Assembly: GCF_000013225.1 (NCBI RefSeq)
Contig: NC_007776.1
Location: 62,001-126,000 of the forward strand
Origin: Synechococcus sp. JA-2-3B'a(2-13)
Lineage (GTDB): Bacteria; Cyanobacteriota; Cyanobacteriia; Thermostichales; Thermostichaceae
DNA: 64,000 nt
Reading direction: 5' to 3'
The notes beneath the pieces are model-generated. The model made no database searches. It worked only from the letters and a program-made list of their open reading frames with translations, and was not told the origin of the DNA. The position numbers and the translations under genes are program-made. Shown here one piece after another: positions 7,320-63,416 of this stretch. Position 1 is the stretch's first letter. Each line of letters starts with the position of its first letter.

Positions 7320-7475
7320 TTTGGCTTTACCAAAAAACTGGGTCTGAAGCTCCGCCCTAGGGCCTACGGCCCGCTGCCGCGATGAGCGCCGCTGCCGTGG
7401 AGGGGCAACCTGACACGGTAAGTGCTGTCGCAGAACCAGGAACCAGAATCCCCTGCCTTTAGGCAGGGGAGTATG
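7320..7475 (+). mobile_element. probable right-end remnant of an IS605/IS1341-type element
   Basis: No gene remains, but a perfect hairpin (CCCCTGCC, loop TTTA, GGCAGGGG) at 7449-7468 is followed at once by AGTATGACA. The end of the broken tnpB element near 25565 has the similar string GGGAGTATGTCA. A hairpin directly before the terminus is typical of IS200/IS605 right ends. A copy of the 24-bp two-hairpin repeat sits at 7361-7382. I infer a decayed element whose tnpB has been lost. Confidence 0.45.
7361..7382 (-). repeat. two-hairpin small dispersed repeat (GGCC/GGCC variant)
   Basis: Read on the minus strand: stem CGC/GCG around GGCA, then stem GGCC/GGCC around GTA. Both stems pair perfectly although the second differs from the commonest GGAC/GTCC form, so the change is compensatory. 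Confidence 0.7.
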
Positions 7476-24109: not shown

Positions 24110-24159
24110 TCAAGCCCTGGTCGCAGTTAGCTAGACCGCCGGGAAGCCCCACCCTCTGT

Positions 24160-24199
24160 TAGTGACTAGTGGCTAGTCACTATCCACTCACCACTATCC
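24160..24199. repeat. heptanucleotide repeat cluster, copy 1
   Basis: Units AGTGACT, AGTGGCT, AGTCACT, ATCCACT, CACCACT: two on one strand then their complements, so the cluster is palindromic overall. It lies 50 bases past hisD and upstream of the broken tnpB. A longer relative is inside that gene at 25041-25118. Confidence 0.75.
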
Positions 24200-25040
24200 A
24201 GGGTGAGGGTCGGGATAAAAGGCGAGGACACGATGCTTCGTCCTTACTGGTGCTATGACCGGCGTAGCAGGATTTTATACCCTCATCATGAGAACTGCTT
24301 ACCAGTATCGCTTACGCCCTACTTCTAGCCAAGTTGCTCTGATGGACCAATGGCTAGACTTGTTACGCAAGCAGTACAACTACCGCTTGGCAGAGCGCTT
24401 TGCGTGGTGGCAACACAATCGCTGTGATAGCAATGCTTGTCCCTTAATCTGTCACTTGCCTGAGTTAAAAGACAATCCCGATTTCTACTCCCAGAAACGG
24501 GATTTGGTGAAGATGAAAGCCCTGTTTCCGCAGTACAGAGCAGTCCATTCGCAAGTCCTCCAGAACTGCATAGAGCGAGTGCACAAAGCATTCGACCGCT
24601 GGCTGAAGGGTGACGGTAGCGGCAAGCGGGCAGGGAAACCCAGATTCAAGGGAGTTGGGCGGTATCGCTCCTTCAGTTTCCCCCAGATGAAACAAGACTG
24701 CATTTGCGGGCAGTTTATCCATCTGCCCAAAATCGGTGCTGTTCGGATAATTCAGCACCGTCCTTTGCCTGAGGGCTTTGTGATTAAGACCGCTGCCATC
24801 AGCCGCAAGGCAGACGGGTGGTATGTGACCTTGAGCCTGCAAGATTCATCTGTCCCCGTATTTACCCCTGACCCGCCAACACTGGAGAACACGATGGGGA
24901 TCGACGTGGGGCTGGACTCCTTTTTGGTGACCGATGCGGGGGAGTCTGTTCCAGTTCCCCAGTACTATCGCAAGGCAGAGCTCAGGCTCAAGAGGTTGCA
25001 GCGAGCCTTGTCTCGCGAGAAGAAGGGGTCAAACCGCCTA

Positions 25041-25118
25041 TGGCTAGTGACTAGTGGATAGTGACCAGTAGATAGTGACCAGTGGATAGTGAATAGTGAC
25101 TATCCACTAACCACTATC
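25041..25118. repeat. heptanucleotide repeat cluster inside tnpB
   Basis: About ten 7-base units: AGTGACT, AGTGGAT, AGTGACC, AGTAGAT, AGTGACC, AGTGGAT, AGTGAAT, AGTGACT, then the complements ATCCACT and AACCACT. It resembles cyanobacterial short tandem repeated repetitive (STRR) sequences in unit length. It replaces a short stretch of tnpB and shifts the frame. Confidence 0.85.
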
Positions 25119-25476: not shown

Positions 25477-25499
25477 TTCGCGTCAGCGGGACGTAGTCC
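25477..25499 (+). repeat. two-hairpin small dispersed repeat
   Basis: Stem CGC/GCG around GTCA, then GGAC/GTCC around GTA. It lies in the 3-prime tail of the broken tnpB, where it encodes residues of an unconserved tail. Confidence 0.75.
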
Positions 25500-25520
25500 T
25501 CAAGCGCAGGAAACGTCCTT

Positions 25521-25543
25521 TTCGCGTTAGCGGCGCGGAGCGC
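25521..25543 (+). repeat. two-hairpin small dispersed repeat (GCGC variant)
   Basis: Stem CGC/GCG around GTTA, then GCGC/GCGC around GGA. Compared with the neighbouring copy at 25477 the second stem changed on both sides and still pairs. It overlaps the stop of the broken tnpB. Confidence 0.75.
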
Positions 25544-25776
25544 TTTGCGTCAGCATGAGTGCGGGAGTATGTCACACTCCAAAATAAGCCCTATTTCTCA
25601 ACCTGGACAAGCAACGGGATCCCTCGCCTGCCCTAGCGCCGCCTGGGGATTTCCCCCTTCCACTGGCAGGGATCCTCACCAACATCATTGTTGAATTGAA
25701 TAATGTTGAATGGTCTGGGCGGGTGCAGGTTCATATCCGCGCTCCTGACGGATGGTCTTCAAAGAAAGGAGATCCA

Positions 25777-28329
25777 ATGCTGTTGGCGGTTCGGTTCCCC
25801 AGTCCTTTGGCGGGACGGAGTCCTCAAGCAGGCTGGTCTGGGATGGTGAGGGATCGTTTCTGGGGCTTCATCTTAAGATCCTTCAAGCCCCTGGCAGTTT
25901 GTCTGGGTTTCCTCTGGGTGGGTCTGCTGGTTTGGACGGGATCCCCGGTTGCCCACGGCCAAAGCGCTGTCCCCGCTGCGGAGCACTTTCTGACGGTGGT
26001 ACGCTTGCCAGGGCAGAACTGGGCCAATATCGAGCGGCAACTGCAGCAGAGCGGCCTCAGCTACCAGGTGATCGACGGGATCGAGCCAGCAGGTTTGCGG
26101 GGGCGCAGCACAGTCTTTTTGCCAAACGTGAATCGCCTAACCGTTGCTCAAGCCCATGCTCTCGCCGAATGGATGCAACAGGAAGGGGGTCAGTTGATCG
26201 TCAGCGGCCCGCTGGAAATCCCTGCTGAGGCACGGGATCCCTTACGCAGCCTGATTGGCGCCTACTGGAGCGGAGATATTCCTCTGGCCAGTACGGTGCG
26301 CCTGACAGAGTTTGCTGAAGCATGGGCCCGCAGCGTTCAGGCGGCCGATCGCGCCAGCGGTGCGGAGCACTTTGTGGTTGCCGGGGGAGCCCTCTTGCCC
26401 ACCGGCCCGGAAAGTCGTCTGGTGGCCGTCTGGGAAGAGGTGGACATGGGGGACAATGCCTATGCGGTGATTGCCAGCCGCCAGAGTGTGTACCTGGGTT
26501 GGCGTTGGGGGGAGTTTCCCGAGGAGACGGCGCAGTTGGATCGGGAGTGGTTGCAAGCGGCTCTGCGCCGGGCCCAAGGCCGTTTCGCTGCCCTCAGACA
26601 GGCTGCTGCCACCCCATCCCCTTTGCCAGCGGTGCGGAGCACCATCAACACCCTGGAGTTGCTGGCCATGCGCCAAGAGCTGGGGAGCTTGCTGGGTCGG
26701 GTAGAGGGATCCCTGTTGCTGGCTCGGGCCACTCAAGGGGGGGTAGAAGCAGCCGAGTACAAGCCCATTTTGGAGCAAGCCCGCAGCGTGTTGCAACAGC
26801 TACCGGCCTGGGTGGAGGCAGGGCAATACGAGCAGGCGCGGCAGGCTTTTGAACAGGCACGGGCGGATCTGTGGGCCCACTACCCGGTGGATCGGTTGAC
26901 GGCTTTGTCTGAGGTACGGGCCATTTGGCTGGATCGGAGCACCATTGTCGAGGCAGGCTCTGAGGCAGGGCTGGCTCAGATTTTCGATCGCCTGGCTCAG
27001 GCTGGCCTCAACACCGTCTTTTTCGAGACGATGAATGCTGGCTTTGCCATTCATCCCAGCCGCGTCGCCCCCCAACAGAACCCCCTCACCCGTGGCCGGG
27101 ATCCCTTGCGGGCGGCGGTGCGCTTGGCTCATGAGCGGGGCCTCGAATTGCACGCTTGGATTTGGACTCTTGCGGTGGGCAACACCCGCCACAATCTGCT
27201 GCCGGAGATCAACTTGCCCCAAGACTACATCGGCCCGGTGCTGACGGCTCACCCCGATTGGGCCAATCTGGACAATCGTGGCCGTCTGTTCCCGCGCGGG
27301 CAGCCGGAAACCTGGCTAGACCCAGCCAATCCGCAGGTGCGCAGCTATCTCCTGGCTCTTACCCGCGAGCTAGTGCAAGACTACCAGGTAGACGGGATCC
27401 ACCTGGACTACATCCGCTATCCCTTCCAAAACGCTGCCAGCCGCCAGGTGTTTGGCTTCGGTCGGGCCGCTCGTCAGGGGTTTCAGCAGTTGTCCGGCGT
27501 CGATCCGCTGGAGTTGGATCCCTTGAGGGATCGCTCCCTCTGGCAGTTGTGGACCCGCTACCGCACCCAGCAGGTGAACGAGGTGGTGGAGGCCATTGCC
27601 CGCACCGCCCGCTCCCTCAACCCGCGCGTGATCCTCTCGGCAGCTGTCTATGCTCTGCCCAAGCAGGAGCGCCTGCAAAGGCTGCAGCAGAACTGGGAAG
27701 AGTGGATCCAGGCAGGGGAGCTGGATTTGTTGATCCCCCTCACCTATGCGGGCAATACACGGCGTTTGGCGCAACTGGTGCAGCCCAATTTGGAAATTGT
27801 CAGCCGCTTCTCCACCCTCTTCGTCCCCAGCCTTAATTTGTTGAACTTGCCGCCCGTCGAGTTCTTGGATCAACTGCAGGTGGTGCGGGATTTGCCCACC
27901 GGGGGGTTTGCTTTATTCTCGGTGCGGCAGCTTACCCCAGAGCTGGAAGCCATCCTCAGGTCCTCCGCCATTGCCTCGACTCGCATTCCCTATCGGGATC
28001 CCTTTGGGGCTGTTCGGGATCGCTTCCAGGCGCTGCGGCAGGAGTGGATGTTTTTGCTCGAGCAGAAACGGTTGGGGTTGTGGGAGCACAGCCAATGGAT
28101 GGAGCAAATAGAGCGGGTGCAGGGATCCCTGGCGGCCTTGGCAGCGGATCCCACCCCGGAAGCCCTGGAACAAGCCCGTCAGCAACTGGGCAACTTGAAA
28201 ACCAATCTTGCCACTTGGATGCGGCTGGAATCTCTGCGCAACCCCTATCGAGTTCAAGTTTGGGGCAACCGTCTCGCGGCTTTGGAGATGATGCTGCGCT
28301 ACGGAGAGCAAACCCTGATGAGGGCATGA
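25777..28329 (+). CDS. GHL10-type (DUF187) family 10-like glycoside hydrolase, exported
   Basis: About 850 residues from ATG 25777, preceded by AGGAGATCC at good spacing. An uncleaved or long signal segment (PLAVCLGFLWVGLLVWTG, then AHGQS) directs export. The catalytic-type TIM barrel starts near residue 380: VRAIWLDRSTIVEA, GLNTVFFETMN, GLELHAWIWTL, VDGIHLDYIRYPFQN and RVILSAAVYALPKQ. These are GHL10 hallmarks; relatives act on cell-wall or exopolysaccharide. An N-terminal gatase-like region precedes it and a coiled tail follows. Two in-frame copies of the 24-bp repeat (26349-26370, 26622-26642) and a degenerate one near 25806 lie inside. Confidence 0.82.
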   Translation: MLLAVRFPSPLAGRSPQAGWSGMVRDRFWGFILRSFKPLAVCLGFLWVGLLVWTGSPVAHGQSAVPAAEHFLTVVRLPGQNWANIERQLQQSGLSYQVIDGIEPAGLRGRSTVFLPNVNRLTVAQAHALAEWMQQEGGQLIVSGPLEIPAEARDPLRSLIGAYWSGDIPLASTVRLTEFAEAWARSVQAADRASGAEHFVVAGGALLPTGPESRLVAVWEEVDMGDNAYAVIASRQSVYLGWRWGEFPEETAQLDREWLQAALRRAQGRFAALRQAAATPSPLPAVRSTINTLELLAMRQELGSLLGRVEGSLLLARATQGGVEAAEYKPILEQARSVLQQLPAWVEAGQYEQARQAFEQARADLWAHYPVDRLTALSEVRAIWLDRSTIVEAGSEAGLAQIFDRLAQAGLNTVFFETMNAGFAIHPSRVAPQQNPLTRGRDPLRAAVRLAHERGLELHAWIWTLAVGNTRHNLLPEINLPQDYIGPVLTAHPDWANLDNRGRLFPRGQPETWLDPANPQVRSYLLALTRELVQDYQVDGIHLDYIRYPFQNAASRQVFGFGRAARQGFQQLSGVDPLELDPLRDRSLWQLWTRYRTQQVNEVVEAIARTARSLNPRVILSAAVYALPKQERLQRLQQNWEEWIQAGELDLLIPLTYAGNTRRLAQLVQPNLEIVSRFSTLFVPSLNLLNLPPVEFLDQLQVVRDLPTGGFALFSVRQLTPELEAILRSSAIASTRIPYRDPFGAVRDRFQALRQEWMFLLEQKRLGLWEHSQWMEQIERVQGSLAALAADPTPEALEQARQQLGNLKTNLATWMRLESLRNPYRVQVWGNRLAALEMMLRYGEQTLMRA
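26349..26370 (+). repeat. two-hairpin small dispersed repeat inside a gene (GTGC/GCAC variant)
   Basis: Stem CGC/GCG around GCCA, then GTGC/GCAC around GGA, both perfect. It encodes part of DRASGAEHF in the GHL10 gene without breaking its frame. A shortened relative with the same second stem is at 26622-26642. Confidence 0.6.
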
Positions 28330-28395: not shown

Positions 28396-28809
28396 TTATG
28401 GGGTATCTTTCGGCATTTCCTCTGCGGGGTCAGGCCCTGTATCCGGCTCCTTGGGGAGAGCAGAGTCCTCAGGGCTGGGCAAGGACTCTGTCCTGCTGGC
28501 GCGAACCGCTTCCGGGGAGGTTTCTGGCTCCTCGTCATCGCTACGCGACGCTTCTGGGAACCCGTCAGCAGTGTGTGGCGCTGAAGCGGGCTGAGCAGCA
28601 ACAGGTTCAGGAGCAGAAGGAGGAGGTGCAGCTGGGATCCCGGCTTCTTCTGCAGGAACAACCGCAGGTGGCTGAGCAGCTTCTTTTTCCTTTTGCTGTT
28701 CGTAGCGGCGACGTTTGTTGCCCTCATCCACCAGCACGTACACCAGGCTGAGGAGAGAGAGCCCTGCTGTTCCAACCAAAACCCAGAGTAAGTTGTTGTC
28801 TATGGTCAT
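28396..28809 (-). CDS. small single-pass membrane protein, unknown function
   Basis: 137 residues. One membrane span at the N-terminus (LLWVLVGTAGLSLLSLVYVLV) is followed by a short basic stretch NKRRRYEQQKEKE and a long Pro/Ala/Glu-rich, low-complexity tail, probably disordered in the cytoplasm. A copy of the 24-bp repeat encodes VRASRTES in the tail. No family was recognised. It is convergent with the glycosidase gene and divergent from the pseudouridine synthase. Confidence 0.6.
   Translation of the reverse strand: MTIDNNLLWVLVGTAGLSLLSLVYVLVDEGNKRRRYEQQKEKEAAQPPAVVPAEEAGIPAAPPPSAPEPVAAQPASAPHTADGFPEASRSDDEEPETSPEAVRASRTESLPSPEDSALPKEPDTGPDPAEEMPKDTP
28483..28505 (-). repeat. two-hairpin small dispersed repeat inside a gene
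   Basis: Read on the minus strand: CGC/GCA around GCCA (one mismatch), then GGAC/GTCC around AGA. It is in frame in the small membrane protein, supplying RASRTES. Confidence 0.65.
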
Positions 28810-29556: not shown

Positions 29557-29630
29557 ATTAAGACGCTTCCTATTCGCTCGGCAGTGAGGAGCTGGGAAGC
29601 AAGACAACGGAACAGTTTTATTCCCTCTTA
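29540..29630 (+). repeat. dispersed repeat family B, copy 2
   Basis: Begins AGTCATTTCAAGTTAGATT, then AAGACGCTTCC; GGGAAGCAA matches the later part of copy 1. It is shorter and more diverged. It supplies the end of the pseudouridine synthase gene and runs straight into repeat family A. Confidence 0.65.
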
Positions 29631-29742
29631 AATGACTATAAACTAGGACACTGCATCCACACCTAAGACGTTGAACGCACAGGGCCGGAAGGCTTTTCTC
29701 CGTAGCTTAGGCGTTTCACCCTAACCTGAAATGACCATAACT
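29630..29742 (+). repeat. dispersed repeat family A, copy 2 (without 24-bp insert)
   Basis: AAACTAGGACACTGCATCC, CCTAAGACGTTGAACGCAC and GCCGGAAGGC match the copy at 58293-58446. It ends CCTGAAATGACCATAA, the inverted form of the start TTATGGTCATTTC of the other copy, so the family has terminal inverted repeats and could be a MITE. It is 24 bp shorter than the other copy in the middle. Confidence 0.7.
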
Positions 29743-33071: not shown

Positions 33072-34351
33072 TCGGGCTGGAGGCCCGCACCATAGCCGCA
33101 GGCTTGGTGTCGGGAGGAAAGCCCTCCTCTATATAGGTTTGCCGGTCAAAAGTCTGGATAAACTACAATAATCCCATGAGCCAGACTATCTCTGTACGTT
33201 GCAAGCTGATAGTCCCACAAGAGTTGCGTCAAGAAATTGACCGCACTTTGCAGGGCTTTGCGAATGCTTGCAACCAGATTCTCGACACCGCCAAACAAAA
33301 GAACTGCTGGAACACCGCTAAGCTGCACCACTTGGTCTATCGACCGGTAAGGGCAGCAACGGGGCTGAAAGCCAACCACGTCTGTCAGGCGCTCCGTCGG
33401 GTGATTAGCAATGCCAAGGCGGTGAAGCAAGTCCACAAGTTCCGCCCCACCAGTCTGACTTTGGACGCTCGTACTTTTAAGTACCGAGAGTCCGACCAGG
33501 CCGTGGGCGTGACCCTGATGAGCGGACGGGTTTGGCTCAAGCTCAAGATTGGCGGTTATCAAATCGCTTTGCTGCGGGGGCAAACGCCCACCAGCGCTAC
33601 TCTGTCCAAGACCAAGCAAGGGGACTACTACATCAACATTGCTGTTGAGCTGGATACTCCCCTAACCGGCAAAACTCCCAAGGTAATCGGAGTTGACTTG
33701 GGCAGGCGAGATATCGCCACCGCTAGCAATGGACGCTCTTGGAGTGGAGAACACATCCAGGCCGTCCGTGACCGGTTCAGCCGTGTACGCGCCAAGGTTC
33801 AATCCAAACGCACTCGCAGCTCTAGGAGGCTGCTGAGAAGGCTCTCTGGGAGAGAACGGCGCTACCAGACATGGCTGAACCATAACATCAGCAAAACCTT
33901 GGTCAGGGATGCCCAGGCTATTGGTGCGGCACTGGCTTTTGAAGACTTGACAGGCATCAGAGATTGCCTGAATCAGAAGTCTCGAAGTAAGGCTGAGCGG
34001 CGCAGGACTAACAACTGGGCGTTCTACCAGCTCAGGATGTTTGTAGCCTACAAGGCTGCCATTGCTGGAGTACCTGTGGTGCTGGTGCCGCCTGCCTACA
34101 CCAGTCAGACCTGCCACAAATGCCTGCACATCCACCCTGAGCGGGGTAAGTCCTACCGCAATGGTAAGTCGTTCAAGTGTGGACACTGCGGGTGGGAAGG
34201 GGATGCTGACCATAACGCTGCTCAAGTAATCTCTCTCCTTGGGGCGACTGTAAACTCGCCTGAAATTCCGAAACTTAGCTGTCCTCTGGGGCCGCTGGGG
34301 ATTGGGATAAAGCCCGCACCCTGCGCGTAGCGCGGGTGTCGGGTAGTTTAC
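33072..34351 (+). mobile_element. IS1341-type (tnpB-only) IS200/IS605-family element 1
   Basis: The left side has GGTGTCGGGAGGAA at 33106-33119 preceded by GCCCGCACC; the right side has GCCCGCACC, then GGTGTCGGGTAGTTTAC ending at 34351. Element 2 (40747-42034) has the same end motifs. The exact left boundary is uncertain. Only tnpB is encoded, so movement would need a TnpA in trans. The right end abuts and forms the stop of tig. Confidence 0.75.
33176..34330 (+). CDS. tnpB: RNA-guided endonuclease TnpB, copy 1
   Basis: 384 residues. RuvC residues are all present: Asp in VIGVDLGRRDIA, Glu in ALAFEDLTGIRD and Asp in GDADHNAAQVI, with a zinc ribbon CHKC...CGHCGWEG. TnpB is the ancestor-like relative of Cas12, cutting DNA at sites chosen by an RNA from the element's right end. 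The protein looks intact. It begins MSQTISVRCKL about 25 bases after the left-end region and is about 40% similar by eye to copy 2. Confidence 0.9.
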   Translation: MSQTISVRCKLIVPQELRQEIDRTLQGFANACNQILDTAKQKNCWNTAKLHHLVYRPVRAATGLKANHVCQALRRVISNAKAVKQVHKFRPTSLTLDARTFKYRESDQAVGVTLMSGRVWLKLKIGGYQIALLRGQTPTSATLSKTKQGDYYINIAVELDTPLTGKTPKVIGVDLGRRDIATASNGRSWSGEHIQAVRDRFSRVRAKVQSKRTRSSRRLLRRLSGRERRYQTWLNHNISKTLVRDAQAIGAALAFEDLTGIRDCLNQKSRSKAERRRTNNWAFYQLRMFVAYKAAIAGVPVVLVPPAYTSQTCHKCLHIHPERGKSYRNGKSFKCGHCGWEGDADHNAAQVISLLGATVNSPEIPKLSCPLGPLGIGIKPAPCA

Positions 34352-37610: not shown

Positions 37611-37769
37611 ACACGACCTCAAAAGTGTCTCCGACCCGGCTTGAGCCAGGCCAGTTGATCCCATTCTAGGGCGGGGGAAGGGATCTTCCCCAAAGGACAC
37701 ATGCTGGTAATGTGGGGATGGCTTGTCTGCGGCTCGGCAGGATACAAAGAGCATTGGGATGTAAGGCTC

Positions 37770-39248
37770 ATGCAAGAACACGCGGGAAATGCCAGGTTGA
37801 GAAGGTGGGGGTTGTTGAGATGGTGGATCTGTCTGTTGACCGCCCTCGTTTTGGCCTCTTGTGGGGGATCCCCGCCTAAACCCCCGCAGGAACAGCTTCC
37901 CCAGCTAGAGCGCGTGCCGGTTCCCCCGGAGATTGCCAAGCTGGATGCCCATTTGCAGTATTGTCGCCCGCAAGTTCAGATCCTCAGCCCCAAGCCAGGT
38001 GAGGTGTTGCCAGAGCGGCAGGTAACCGTTCGCTTCGCGGTGCAAGGGTACCCACTTTTCAAAGATCCGCAATTGGGTCTTGGCCCTCATCTGCACGTGG
38101 TGCTGGACAACCGGCCCTACATCGCCCATTACGATGCCGATGCTCCCCTCGTTTTCAAGGATTTGGAGCCGGGATCCCATACTCTGCGGGTGTTTGCCGG
38201 CAAACCCTGGCACGAGAGCTTCAAAAACTCTGAAGCCTATGCCCAGGTTAGCTTCCACGTGCTAGCTCCCACCCCCGAGTACGTGCCACAGCCGCAACTG
38301 CCCCTGCTCACCTACAACCGCCCCACAGGCAGCTACGGGGCCGAGCCAATCTTGGTGGATTTCTGGCTGGCCAATGCCCCAGTGCGGGAGAGCCTGTTGA
38401 GTGACTTGCCACGGGACTGGCGGATCCGCTACACCCTCAACGGCCAATCTGGCCTGCTGGATCGCTGGGAGTCTTTTTATCTGAAGGGCTTCAGGCCCGG
38501 TCGCAATGTGATGGTGCTGGAACTGGTGGACAGCAAAGGGGATCCCATCCGCAATGTGTTCAACAGCGCCGCCCGCGAGATCACCTACACCCCTGGCGGC
38601 CAAGACACCCTCTCCAAGCTGGTTCGGGGGGAGCTAAAAGCCGAAGAGGCCCTGGCCATCGTCCAGCCCCAGCCCACCCCTACCCCAACTCCGACACCGG
38701 AGCCCACCCCGACTCCAGAACCCACGCCCACTCCTACTCCGACGCCCACTCCTACTCCGACGCCAACGCCAACTCCGACACCCACGCCCGCTCCTACTCC
38801 GACGCCAACACCCAGCCCGACGCCCACACCCACTCCTACTCCGACGCCAACACCCAGCCCGACGCCCACGCCCACTCCTACTCCGACGCCAACACCCAGC
38901 CCGACGCCCACGCCCACACCCACTCCGACTCCAACGCCAGAGGCGACGCCCACGCTTGCACCTCGTCGCCAGCCGCGCTTTCAACTGGGCCGCCCCCGTC
39001 CGACACCAGAGGGGATCCCGGCTGTTCCAACGCCACCGCCCGTAGTAGCCACTCCCGAACCTGAGCTTACGCCTGAGCCCAGCCCAGAGCCCTCTCCGCA
39101 AGCTGTGCCCACTTCAACTCCCCAGCCTGTGGCTACGCCTTTGCCGCGCGTGACCCCTATCCCTTTCCAGGAGCGGCGAGTGCGCCAGCAGGGGTTGCGG
39201 CTTTTCCCGCCGGGACTCCACAGTCCGGCCTTGCCAGGTGAGCAATAG
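37770..39248 (+). CDS. lipoprotein with long Thr-Pro repeat region
   Basis: About 492 residues. A signal peptide ends with lipobox LASC. The next 300 residues contain two related beta-sandwich-like segments ([21 protein letters not shown], then [16 protein letters not shown]). Residues about 300-400 are Thr-Pro repeats, then a shorter Pro-rich tail. The design resembles a surface-anchored protein with a rigid PT stalk crossing peptidoglycan. Function is unknown. It is divergent from ccsA by about 160 bases. Confidence 0.72.
38660..38945 (+). repeat. Thr-Pro coding repeat
   Basis: Nested tandem DNA repeats built on the 6-base unit coding Thr-Pro (for example ACTCCGACGCCA, CCCACGCCC) with longer 42-60 base periods visible, such as CCGACGCCAACACCCAGCC three times. 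Such tracts change length by slippage, so stalk length may vary among strains. Confidence 0.85.
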
Positions 39249-40690: not shown

Positions 40691-40811
40691 CGCTATTCGA
40701 GAACCCTGGATGCGCGATCCTGTCCCTTCAGCTAGAAATCGCAGGAGCCCCGCACTGTACCCGTAGGGTCGGTGTCGGGAGGAATGCGCTTTGATGAAGT
40801 ACAATGAACTT

Positions 40812-42029
40812 ATGAGCCAAGTCCTGACCATATCCTGTAAGCTCAAGGTGTCCCCGTCGCAAGCCGCCAAATTGGACGCGACGATGGATGCCTTTGTACA
40901 GGCATTGAACTGGGTCAACCAAAACACACCAGAAAAAGTAGTCAACGCAGTCAAACTCCAATCCCTTTGCTACTACGAGATTCGAGCCCGGTTTGGCTTG
41001 TCCAGTAACTTGGCAAGGACTACGTCCCGCTTACGCGACCAACAGGTGTGCAGACGGGTAGCGGGTTCCCGCAAAGTGGCTAAGCAGAAAAAGCGTCCCG
41101 TCAAGGAGTTTAAGAGCGGCTTTGTTACCTACGACGCTCGCATCTTTTCGTTCCGTCAAAAAGACTGGACGGTGTCGCTGACCACGGTGGAAGGGAGAGA
41201 ACGCTTTGAACTGGCCATTGGCAACTACCAGCGTGGGATGCTGGCTGGTTCCAACCCCAAATCTGCCACCCTGGTCAAGCGCAAAGATGGCTCCTACTAC
41301 ATCCAGATTTGCGTAGAGAAAAAACCACCCAAGCAACAAGATACCGACAAGGTGATCGGGGTGGATTTGGGAAGAATAGATATTGCTCATACCTCAGAGG
41401 GGAAGAACTGGAATGGACAGCAGTTAAACAAGGTACGAGACCACTACTCCCGGTTGAGGGCGGTACTCCAACGCAAAGCCAGTAAGGGCACACGCAGTTC
41501 GCGGCGCAGATGCCGTCAACTGCTGCAACGGCTGTCTGGCAAGGAAAGACGCTTTCAAACGTGGGTCAATCATCGCATCTCTAAAGCTATTGTCTCTAGG
41601 GCAAAGACCACAAACAGCGCTATTGCCCTGGAAGACCTGACAGGGATCCGGGAAAGGGTCAATCAACAGCCACGCAGCAAAGCTGAGCGCCGCAGAACCA
41701 ATAACTGGGCGTTCTACCAGCTTAGGATGTTTGTGGTCTACAAGGCTGCCATCGCCGGAGTGTCTGTAGTACTGGTCCCGCCTGCCTACACGTCGCAGAC
41801 CTGCCACCGGTGTTTGCACATCCATCCCGATCCTACGCAATCCTATCGCAGTGGGAAGCAGTTTAAGTGTGGGCACTGTGGATGGGAAGGGGATGCGGAC
41901 TGGAATGGAGCCAACATGATTGCTAAACTTGGGGCTGCCGTAAACCGGCCTAGAGGTCCGTGGTTGGCTTGCCAACTGCAGGGCTACCGAAAGCCCGCCC
42001 TGTACTGCGAAGTAGTCAGGGTCGGGTAG
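40812..42029 (+). CDS. tnpB: RNA-guided endonuclease TnpB, copy 2, with 8-residue insertion
   Basis: 405 residues from ATG 40812, where the sequence MSQVLTISCKL matches copy 1's start. RuvC positions are intact: VIGVDLGRIDIAH, SAIALEDLTGIRE, DADWNGANMI, and a zinc ribbon CHRC...CGHCGWEG. At 41016-41039 a copy of the 24-bp dispersed repeat adds exactly eight residues, RTTSRLRD, between SSNLA and QQVCRRVAG. The frame is preserved and the catalytic core lies elsewhere, so the protein may still fold. The stop is within the right-end motif. Confidence 0.9.
   Translation: MSQVLTISCKLKVSPSQAAKLDATMDAFVQALNWVNQNTPEKVVNAVKLQSLCYYEIRARFGLSSNLARTTSRLRDQQVCRRVAGSRKVAKQKKRPVKEFKSGFVTYDARIFSFRQKDWTVSLTTVEGRERFELAIGNYQRGMLAGSNPKSATLVKRKDGSYYIQICVEKKPPKQQDTDKVIGVDLGRIDIAHTSEGKNWNGQQLNKVRDHYSRLRAVLQRKASKGTRSSRRRCRQLLQRLSGKERRFQTWVNHRISKAIVSRAKTTNSAIALEDLTGIRERVNQQPRSKAERRRTNNWAFYQLRMFVVYKAAIAGVSVVLVPPAYTSQTCHRCLHIHPDPTQSYRSGKQFKCGHCGWEGDADWNGANMIAKLGAAVNRPRGPWLACQLQGYRKPALYCEVVRVG
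41016..41039 (-). repeat. two-hairpin small dispersed repeat inserted in tnpB
   Basis: Read on the minus strand: CGC/GCG around GTAA, then GGAC/GTCC around GTA. It occupies exactly eight codons of tnpB. The usual loop GTTA would put a TAA stop in this reading frame; the GTAA loop here gives TTA (Leu) instead. Confidence 0.85.
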
Positions 42030-44652: not shown

Positions 44653-44934
44653 CTGATACATTTACGCTGAACACTGCTGAACATCACTGTTCAACTATGC
44701 AGCGATAGCATTCTGTTTGTTTCCAAACAGAATGGCGGTATCCCGCAAAGCTTTGAGTAGAATACCCAAAGCGCAGTTTCCGTGTCGTCTTACTACCAAT
44801 TTTCTGCTTTGCTTTGGCTACCATGTTGGCAGACTCGAAAGTAAACAGAAAGATCAACTGGTAGTAATCCGTACTGAACATATTATACATTATTTTCAGT
44901 ATAGTTGAGCTTATTATTGACTAGAGTCATGCTC
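44653..44934. repeat. repeat C, copy 1 (282 bp, without 24-bp insert)
   Basis: Identical by eye to 61700-62005 except that the latter has 24 extra bases. It starts CTGATACATTTACGCTGAAC and ends CTAGAGTCATGCTC. It includes a small hairpin CTGTTTG/CAAACAG with loop TTTC at about 44712-44729. A 68-codon open frame on the minus strand is not preserved in the other copy and I do not call it a gene. No clear terminal inverted repeats. Confidence 0.85.
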
Positions 44935-58292: not shown

Positions 58293-58446
58293 TTATGGTC
58301 ATTTCGATTCAAACTAGGACACTGCACCCACGCCTAAAACGTTAAATGCACCGTGCCAGAAGGCCTTTCAAAGACTCCGTCCCGCTAGCGCGAACAGTAG
58401 CTCAGGTGTCTTGCCCTGAACTGGAACGACTGTAAACGACTATAAA
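58293..58446 (+). repeat. dispersed repeat family A, copy 1 (with 24-bp insert)
   Basis: TTATGGTCATTTC starts it, then AAACTAGGACACTGCACCC and GTGCCAGAAGGC as in 29630-29742. At 58372-58394 it contains a minus-oriented copy of the two-hairpin repeat that the other A copy lacks; the extra length is 24 bases. The right end GGAACGACTGTAAA is a degenerate inverted form of the left end. Confidence 0.7.
58372..58394 (-). repeat. two-hairpin small dispersed repeat inside repeat A
   Basis: Read on the minus strand: CGC/GCG around GCTA, then GGAC/GTCT around GGA (one G-T pair). Absent from the corresponding place in the other copy of repeat A. Confidence 0.75.
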
Positions 58447-61699: not shown

Positions 61700-62005
61700 C
61701 TGATACATTTACGCTGAACACTGCTGAACATCACTGTTCAACTATGCAGCGATAGCATTCTGTTTGTTTCCATTCGCGTTAGCGGGACGGAGTCCAAACA
61801 GAATGGCGGTATCCCGCAAAGCTTTGAGTAGAATACCCAAAGCGCAGTTTCCGTGTCGTCTTACTACCAATTTTCTGCTTTGCTTTGGCTACCATGTTGG
61901 CAGACTCGAAAGTAAACAGAAAGATCAACTGGTAGTAATCCGTACTGAACATATTATACATTATTTTCAGTATAGTTGAGCTTATTATTGACTAGAGTCA
62001 TGCTC
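61700..62005. repeat. repeat C, copy 2 (306 bp, with 24-bp insert)
   Basis: Same sequence as 44653-44934 outside the insertion; I see no other difference. The extra 24 bases (61772-61795) are a copy of the two-hairpin small dispersed repeat. The insertion lies in the loop of the CTGTTTG/CAAACAG hairpin. Near-identity over 280 bases at 17 kb distance implies recent copying or conversion. Confidence 0.85.
61772..61795 (+). repeat. two-hairpin small dispersed repeat inside repeat C
   Basis: Stem CGC/GCG around GTTA, then GGAC/GTCC around GGA; the full insertion is 24 bases with CC on both sides. The matching site in copy 1 reads straight through from GTTTCC to AAACAG. Confidence 0.9.
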
Positions 62006-62996: not shown

Positions 62997-63416
62997 ACTC
63001 TAAGCCTTGAATCACGTTTTTCTTTCTGCTTCTCCCAAGGCGGCTCCGGCGGTCGTTGCCAAGGTATTAAAAGTTCCACGGCTCCTGCTCTCTTTGGGAG
63101 ACATTCTGAACTCAAAAAGAGGCTCTGGGGTGGTTATTTGTAGAACCCAAGCTACTACGCGGGTACAGCGGGGCAAGTTTCCGGAGAGGTTATCAAGCGC
63201 TACACAGAGGCTCAGAAGACAGAGCAAGGGGGCGATTGAGTCCCTTTGGTCACACTCAAGGCTCATATCCATGCTGGCTTACAAGCTGAGGCAGTTTTGA
63301 GGGACGCTCTGTAGCTGCTGTCAACCTGCCGTGAACCTAGGACCGCTGAGATAAACGATGATAAAAACAGCAGCTGCTGTTAACCCTCCGGAGTTCGAAG
63401 CCTAGGGATCCCCTCC

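Follow-up and report, generated by a model that had tools for sequence, protein, structure and literature searches.

A dispersed 24-nucleotide two-hairpin repeat with lineage-specific gains in Synechococcus sp. JA-2-3B'a(2-13) and its congeners

The small dispersed repeats of Nostoc punctiforme, SDR1 to SDR8, were reportedly described by Elhai and colleagues in 2008 as elements of 21-27 nt; the hairpins of SDR4-6 are said to be kept by compensatory changes, and the SDRs are said to reside in minitransposons, to insert into each other's copies and to have been mobile recently. An RNA intermediate has been proposed for some of the Nostoc SDRs. The palindromic elements of Rickettsia, several times longer than 24 nt, are short palindromes that lie in frame within protein genes as insertions. 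MITEs of thermophilic Synechococcus, reportedly IS derivatives of hundreds of nucleotides, are said to have been described by Nelson, Bhaya and Heidelberg in 2012. The SDRs of Elhai and colleagues are cited in passages of three other papers (PMC4390886, PMC3116915, PMC2884548), and a passage of the first places SDR5 in HIP1 (PMC4390886). The IS200/IS605 elements have end hairpins of 20-25 nt and a flanking tetranucleotide target, and produce no target duplication (PMC6006769).

The window analyzed here is a stretch of 64,000 nt of the Synechococcus sp. JA-2-3B'a(2-13) genome, in which a sequence-only reading had pointed to two copies of a repeat, at 58293-58446 and 29630-29742, that have alignable flanks and differ by a 24-base step between AAGGC and TAGCT. 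Direct reading bears this out, with 33 nt (CTTTCAAAGACTCCGTCCCGCTAGCGCGAACAG) separating the two motifs in the first copy and 9 nt (TTTTCTCCG) in the second. The two stretches are homologous (85% over 59 nt), and a search of the whole genome, a single contig of 3,046,682 bp, yielded about 20 copies of the repeat, denoted here MITE A, a TIR-bearing, MITE-like miniature element of ~115 nt when empty, with the ends TATRGTCRTTTC.../...GAAACGACTATA. The coordinates can be refined to ~58294-58434 for MITE A proper; compared with the copy at ~29641-29739, the length difference is exactly 24 nt, at 58370-58393. The features of the pair are the following:

58294-58434, plus strand: MITE A (repeat A), filled copy, 3' of psbK (alignment; psbK by Pfam; a MITE at the same site in the closest relative, G004)
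58370-58393, plus strand: inserted unit AA AGAC-TCC-GTCC CGC-TAGC-GCG A, with one mismatch in the first stem (exact 24-nt difference from empty copies; structure)
58394-58397, plus strand: ACAG, a target tetranucleotide of the WCRG type directly 3' of the unit (flank table of 108 terminal units)
29641-29739, plus strand: MITE A, empty copy that has lost the normal left terminal repeat (direct read; alignment)

G004 shares the first of these loci, with other units in its MITE.

The general anatomy of the 24-nt unit is AA + GGAC-TCC-GTCC + CGC-TNNC-GCG + A, that is, a first hairpin of 4 bp with a TCC or TAC loop and a second one of 3 bp with a TNNC loop; the two-hairpin form proposed earlier is supported by stem covariation, chiefly that of the first stem. 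The core GGACTCCGTCCCGCTNGCGCGA has 313 matches in the 3.05-Mb genome at up to 3 mismatches (165 forward and 148 reverse), and the reversed pattern, run as a control on the same genome, has none. A structural descriptor in which only the loop letters and the final A were fixed and stem complementarity was required recovered 99 units in 550 kb, compared with zero in the same 550 kb when the stems were mirrored rather than complementary. The first stem is fully paired in 98 of the 111 units selected by tail and loop alone and comes in seven types (GGAC, GTGC, GGCC, TTGC, GCGC, TCGC and GGAG). The second stem is CGC/GCG in 98 of 99 units, with a single CCC/GGG, and hence carries little covariation information. 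The folding energy of single units is ordinary compared with shuffles (z from -0.6 to -1.3), so that the structure rests on covariation. The sampled stretches were picked partly from forward matches, and counts beyond the fetched stretches are those of pattern searches. Units also form head-to-tail tandem arrays with a period of exactly 24 nt, and they are under-represented in long ORFs, which hold 55% of the units vs 76% of random positions. The unit has no match in Rfam, and no exact copy was found in viral contigs. Further units in the window include:

28481-28504, plus strand: stand-alone unit
25478-25501, minus strand: unit with a TAC loop
25522-25545, minus strand: unit, GCGC stem variant
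26349-26372, minus strand: unit, GTGC stem variant
7359-7382, plus strand: unit, GGCC stem variant
41015-41038, plus strand: unit (GGACTACGTCCCGCTTACGCGA), in frame in a tnpB-like ORF (40791-42029)

The GGACTACGTCCCGCTTACGCGA variant is found again at several places in the genome, and this ORF, like the other tnpB-like ORF of the window (33176-34330), has OrfB_IS605/Cas12f1-like TNB domains. Clusters of units adjoin a repeated GACATACTCCCGCACTCAT... (L020, 1477-1575; L022, 1433-1575; window, 25478-25545) that looks like the end of an IS200/IS605 element. Related repeats with a different second half (L085, L093 and relatives) have the form TGCC-TCC-GGCA + CCC-TNNC-GGG, or GGACTCCGTCCGAGTAGCGCGA; one of them is a 21-nt insertion in G004, and their existence suggests that there may be several subfamilies of the unit.

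Alignment of 19 MITE A copies from this genome shows a clean step in place of gradual length variation: the insert is present in 11 copies and absent in 8, its length is 24 nt in ten of the 11 and 25 nt in L011, and intermediate lengths occur at the main site in none of the 19. The insertion point is identical in all 11 filled copies (GGCTTTTC|TCAGTAGCC). A second site in MITE A holds a different unit, with a TTGC-TCC-GCAA stem and in the opposite orientation, and also has compound inserts; counted on the alignment, the extra length there is 24 nt in L008 and L018, 32 nt in L009 and 40 nt in L010. All four combinations of filled and empty states of the two sites are seen. One orthologous MITE A with the same host junctions is empty here (L012) and filled in G004 (L313), so that this site has changed at least once in recent times; a second orthologous copy (L005) acquired an additional unit, in the opposite orientation, in G004 (L323), and this unit is present neither here nor in G001 (L302).

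Pairwise divergence among the filled copies is 3.0% for the insert and 17% for the MITE body; the 24 consecutive body columns with the strongest conservation differ by 11.8%. Had a lone old insertion been a mere passenger, it would have diverged together with MITE A unless constrained or converted; the lower divergence of the insert therefore calls for constraint, for homogenization at a later time or for more than one insertion at a preferred site. Some or most of the filled copies may represent one insertion amplified with the MITE, and a single insertion followed by homogenization may likewise account for the family. The MITE A tree, in which the rows included ~8 nt of non-homologous flank per side, resolved no deep branch and therefore gives no count of the insertion events in family A. 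The sequence-only reading had proposed an independent insertion of a discrete mobile unit. The mobile unit stands, with ~300 dispersed copies, clean empty orthologous sites and two unrelated MITE families that host it; the 11 filled family-A copies, given their one common site, may not be 11 separate insertions.

The second host family, unrelated to MITE A, is a 282-nt MITE represented in the window by both forms:

44653-44934, no strand assigned: 282-nt MITE, empty copy (alignment; 28 empty copies in the genome)
61700-62005, no strand assigned: filled form of this MITE, 306 nt long (alignment; 12 filled copies in the genome)
61773-61796, minus strand: 24-nt unit inside the 306-nt MITE, with up to 4 nt of uncertainty in its position (alignment)

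The ~40 copies (12 filled, 28 empty) are 99-100% alike outside the unit, and all 12 filled ones carry it at one site, a pattern that a single insertion and its later amplification suffice to explain. Both forms are also found in G001 at 99-100% identity, against a divergence of ~15-20% between the two genomes, suggesting that this MITE has been active or exchanged recently. It may be among the MITEs of Nelson, Bhaya and Heidelberg; those belong to the same host group, and elements of this sort carry the 24-nt unit as a passenger. With 12 filled 282-nt MITEs and 11 filled family-A copies, each family using one site, passenger spread is clear, and the unit might be regarded as not self-moving, carried only by MITEs, IS elements, recombination or gene conversion between copies; the four site combinations in family A could reflect recombination. 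This explanation seems quite improbable because many units stand alone, both within genes and between them; their empty sites differ by a clean 24 nt and no MITE sequence surrounds them, as in the trpB case described below.

A search of 39 genomes at up to 2 mismatches, with both loop bases free, found the unit in all six genomes of the genus, in 30 to 294 copies; outside the genus there are 4 matches in one other family member and 2 in one distant cyanobacterium, and 31 of the 39 genomes have none at this threshold. Exact 23-mers occur in Geitlerinema sp. BBD 1991-9 (within a longer repeat), a Gloeomargaritales genome, Baaleninema simplex and a few MAGs, and several of those beyond the genus have the same flanks, CTAA...ACGG. 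In 52.5 kb aligned with G004 (85-95% identical), where gaps of at least 16 nt with good flanks were counted, the gap lengths are 24 (14 gaps), 48 (two), 72 (one), 21 (two), and 30, 82 and 120 (one each). All but one of the 14 24-nt gaps are units or stem variants, some being extra in this genome and some in G004. Across orthologous sites compared with five congeneric genomes, filled and empty states alternate in 24/48-nt steps, and filled sites private to this genome, to G001 and to G004 were found: L073:7752 is filled here and empty in G001, G003, G004 and G005, L190:2458 is filled in G001 only, and L076:6005 is filled in G004 and empty here and in G001. A further site, L070:16899, is filled in this genome, G001 and G004. 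The unit is an independent dispersed element whose gains at orthologous sites are lineage-specific. Precise loss is required at no compared site; at sites where only two genomes were compared, precise loss rather than gain may have occurred. Replication slippage within tandem repeats could alter the copy number in the period-24 arrays that do exist, but as the source of the 24-nt steps it is hardly credible because the steps go from zero copies to one with neither a prior partial unit nor a flanking direct repeat. The ORF at L073:7752 has a PALP domain and reads as trpB; it encodes LAPQ-QGLRPANAI-GPQQ in this genome vs LAPQ-L-GPQQ in G001. The unit has thus added 8 residues to TrpB in frame, which shows that proteins are changed by it.

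The flanks of the unit are also defined. Among 108 terminal units, the 3' flank follows WCRG (C in 71%, R in 91% and G in 77%), and G is found at position -3 in none, giving the layout H-WW-unit-WCRG, which reads CYGW on the complementary strand. The orthologous empty sites already contain a WCRG-like target, and no target duplication was found at the compared filled/empty sites. In three cases (L070:9050, L070:4432 and the 282-nt MITE), a single flanking W is matched on the left and not on the right, which leaves an uncertainty of one nucleotide in the position of the junction.

The unit resembles the Nostoc SDRs, as these are reported, in size and copy number (24 nt; 313 matches, none in the control), in compensatory hairpin changes (seven paired first-stem types), in its presence in minitransposons (MITE A and the 282-nt MITE, with nested or adjacent second units in G004) and in recent mobility, as judged from the lineage-private sites and gap lengths. 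It differs from them in host lineage and in its exact 24-nt head-to-tail arrays, and, unlike SDR5, it has H-WW-unit-WCRG flanks rather than a location in HIP1 (GCGATCGC). Sites of the GGGATCCC type (PMC4390886) are abundant in the genome. Of the known kinds, the Nostoc repeats are the closest. In the literature searched on repeats of this genus we found no description of the unit, which, judged by these sequence features, would be an SDR-like element in a lineage where, as far as that literature extends, none had been described. In residing in frame in protein genes it can also be likened, by description, to the Rickettsia palindromic elements.

We consider it likely that the unit is a non-autonomous 24-nt mobile repeat that inserts 5' of WCRG, the least certain step of this proposal being a single-stranded DNA route of the HUH type. 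The unit would spread to new places directly 5' of WCRG, after a non-G base and with no target duplication, and would sometimes be laid down as head-to-tail arrays of period 24; in family A it would have entered a preferred site, and filled MITEs would also have carried it as a passenger. The moving form would most likely be single-stranded DNA with two hairpins, on which an enzyme acts in trans; one of the HUH/Y1 (IS200/IS605-like) sort is a tentative candidate since hairpin recognition, a short flanking target and the lack of duplication match how such enzymes work. Y1 transposase matches are present in all six genomes of the genus, and their number does not track that of the units (19 matches and 84 units in G001; 4 matches, the full-length ones carrying a stop, and 248 units in G004). 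The genome analyzed here has two, an intact one with the IS200-type motif YIESQ beside a tnpB-like ORF and a stop-bearing fragment, seen in the window at 63060-63215 as what is left of the C-terminal half of an IS200-type Y1 transposase. Like IS200/IS605 elements and their non-autonomous derivatives, the unit has hairpins and a short flanking target and lacks target duplication; unlike them, it is only 24 nt long. No IS200/IS605 guide sequence was recognized next to its hairpins. Units found in the 3' zone of the resident tnpA, the gene at 544340-544702 of the contig, appear to be insertions there.

Short dispersed hairpins at high copy number with a tetranucleotide at the foot also recall REP/REPIN elements, which are moved by TnpA-REP (RAYT). 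We regard such an identity as very unlikely because the flank is CYGW and not the GT[AG]G that defines these elements (PMC6006769), long ORFs hold about half of the units, in contrast to the mostly intergenic REPs, and no RAYT was found in this genome, its intact Y1 being of the IS200 type and the other a stop-bearing fragment. An RNA intermediate, with reverse transcription or with reverse splicing followed by reverse transcription, would fit a small, structured, dispersed unit whose structure is kept by covariation and which makes no target duplication. However, a search of all six congeneric genomes returned no RVT_1 domain, although the control search found RVT_1 elsewhere, which weakens a route through a resident enzyme and makes this explanation improbable; a reverse transcriptase of a type invisible to the RVT_1 profile, or one since lost, is possible. 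The fuller version of the preferred DNA-level reading, in which an unrecognized enzyme of cyanobacteria distant from Nostoc moves a 24-nt DNA unit 5' of WCRG, without reverse transcription and also into genes in frame, is a possibility that we hold with considerable doubt; if true, the unit would be among the smallest mobile elements known. Elements of ~24 nt mark the lower limit of what counts as mobile, and the choice between RNA and DNA becomes testable here: the unit is present ~300 times, at least three lineages have gains of their own, the target motif is defined, the search for a reverse transcriptase domain in these genomes detected none, and the group can be cultured and has many sequenced strains.

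Two other repeats were observed in the window. Direct and inverted repeats of the TAGTGACTAGTGG type, at 24158-24200 and 25041-25111, flank an ORF of 268 aa (24255-25061). An array with 12/12/18-nt spacing at 38655-38977, within the ORF at 37701-39248, is likely a repeat within the protein.
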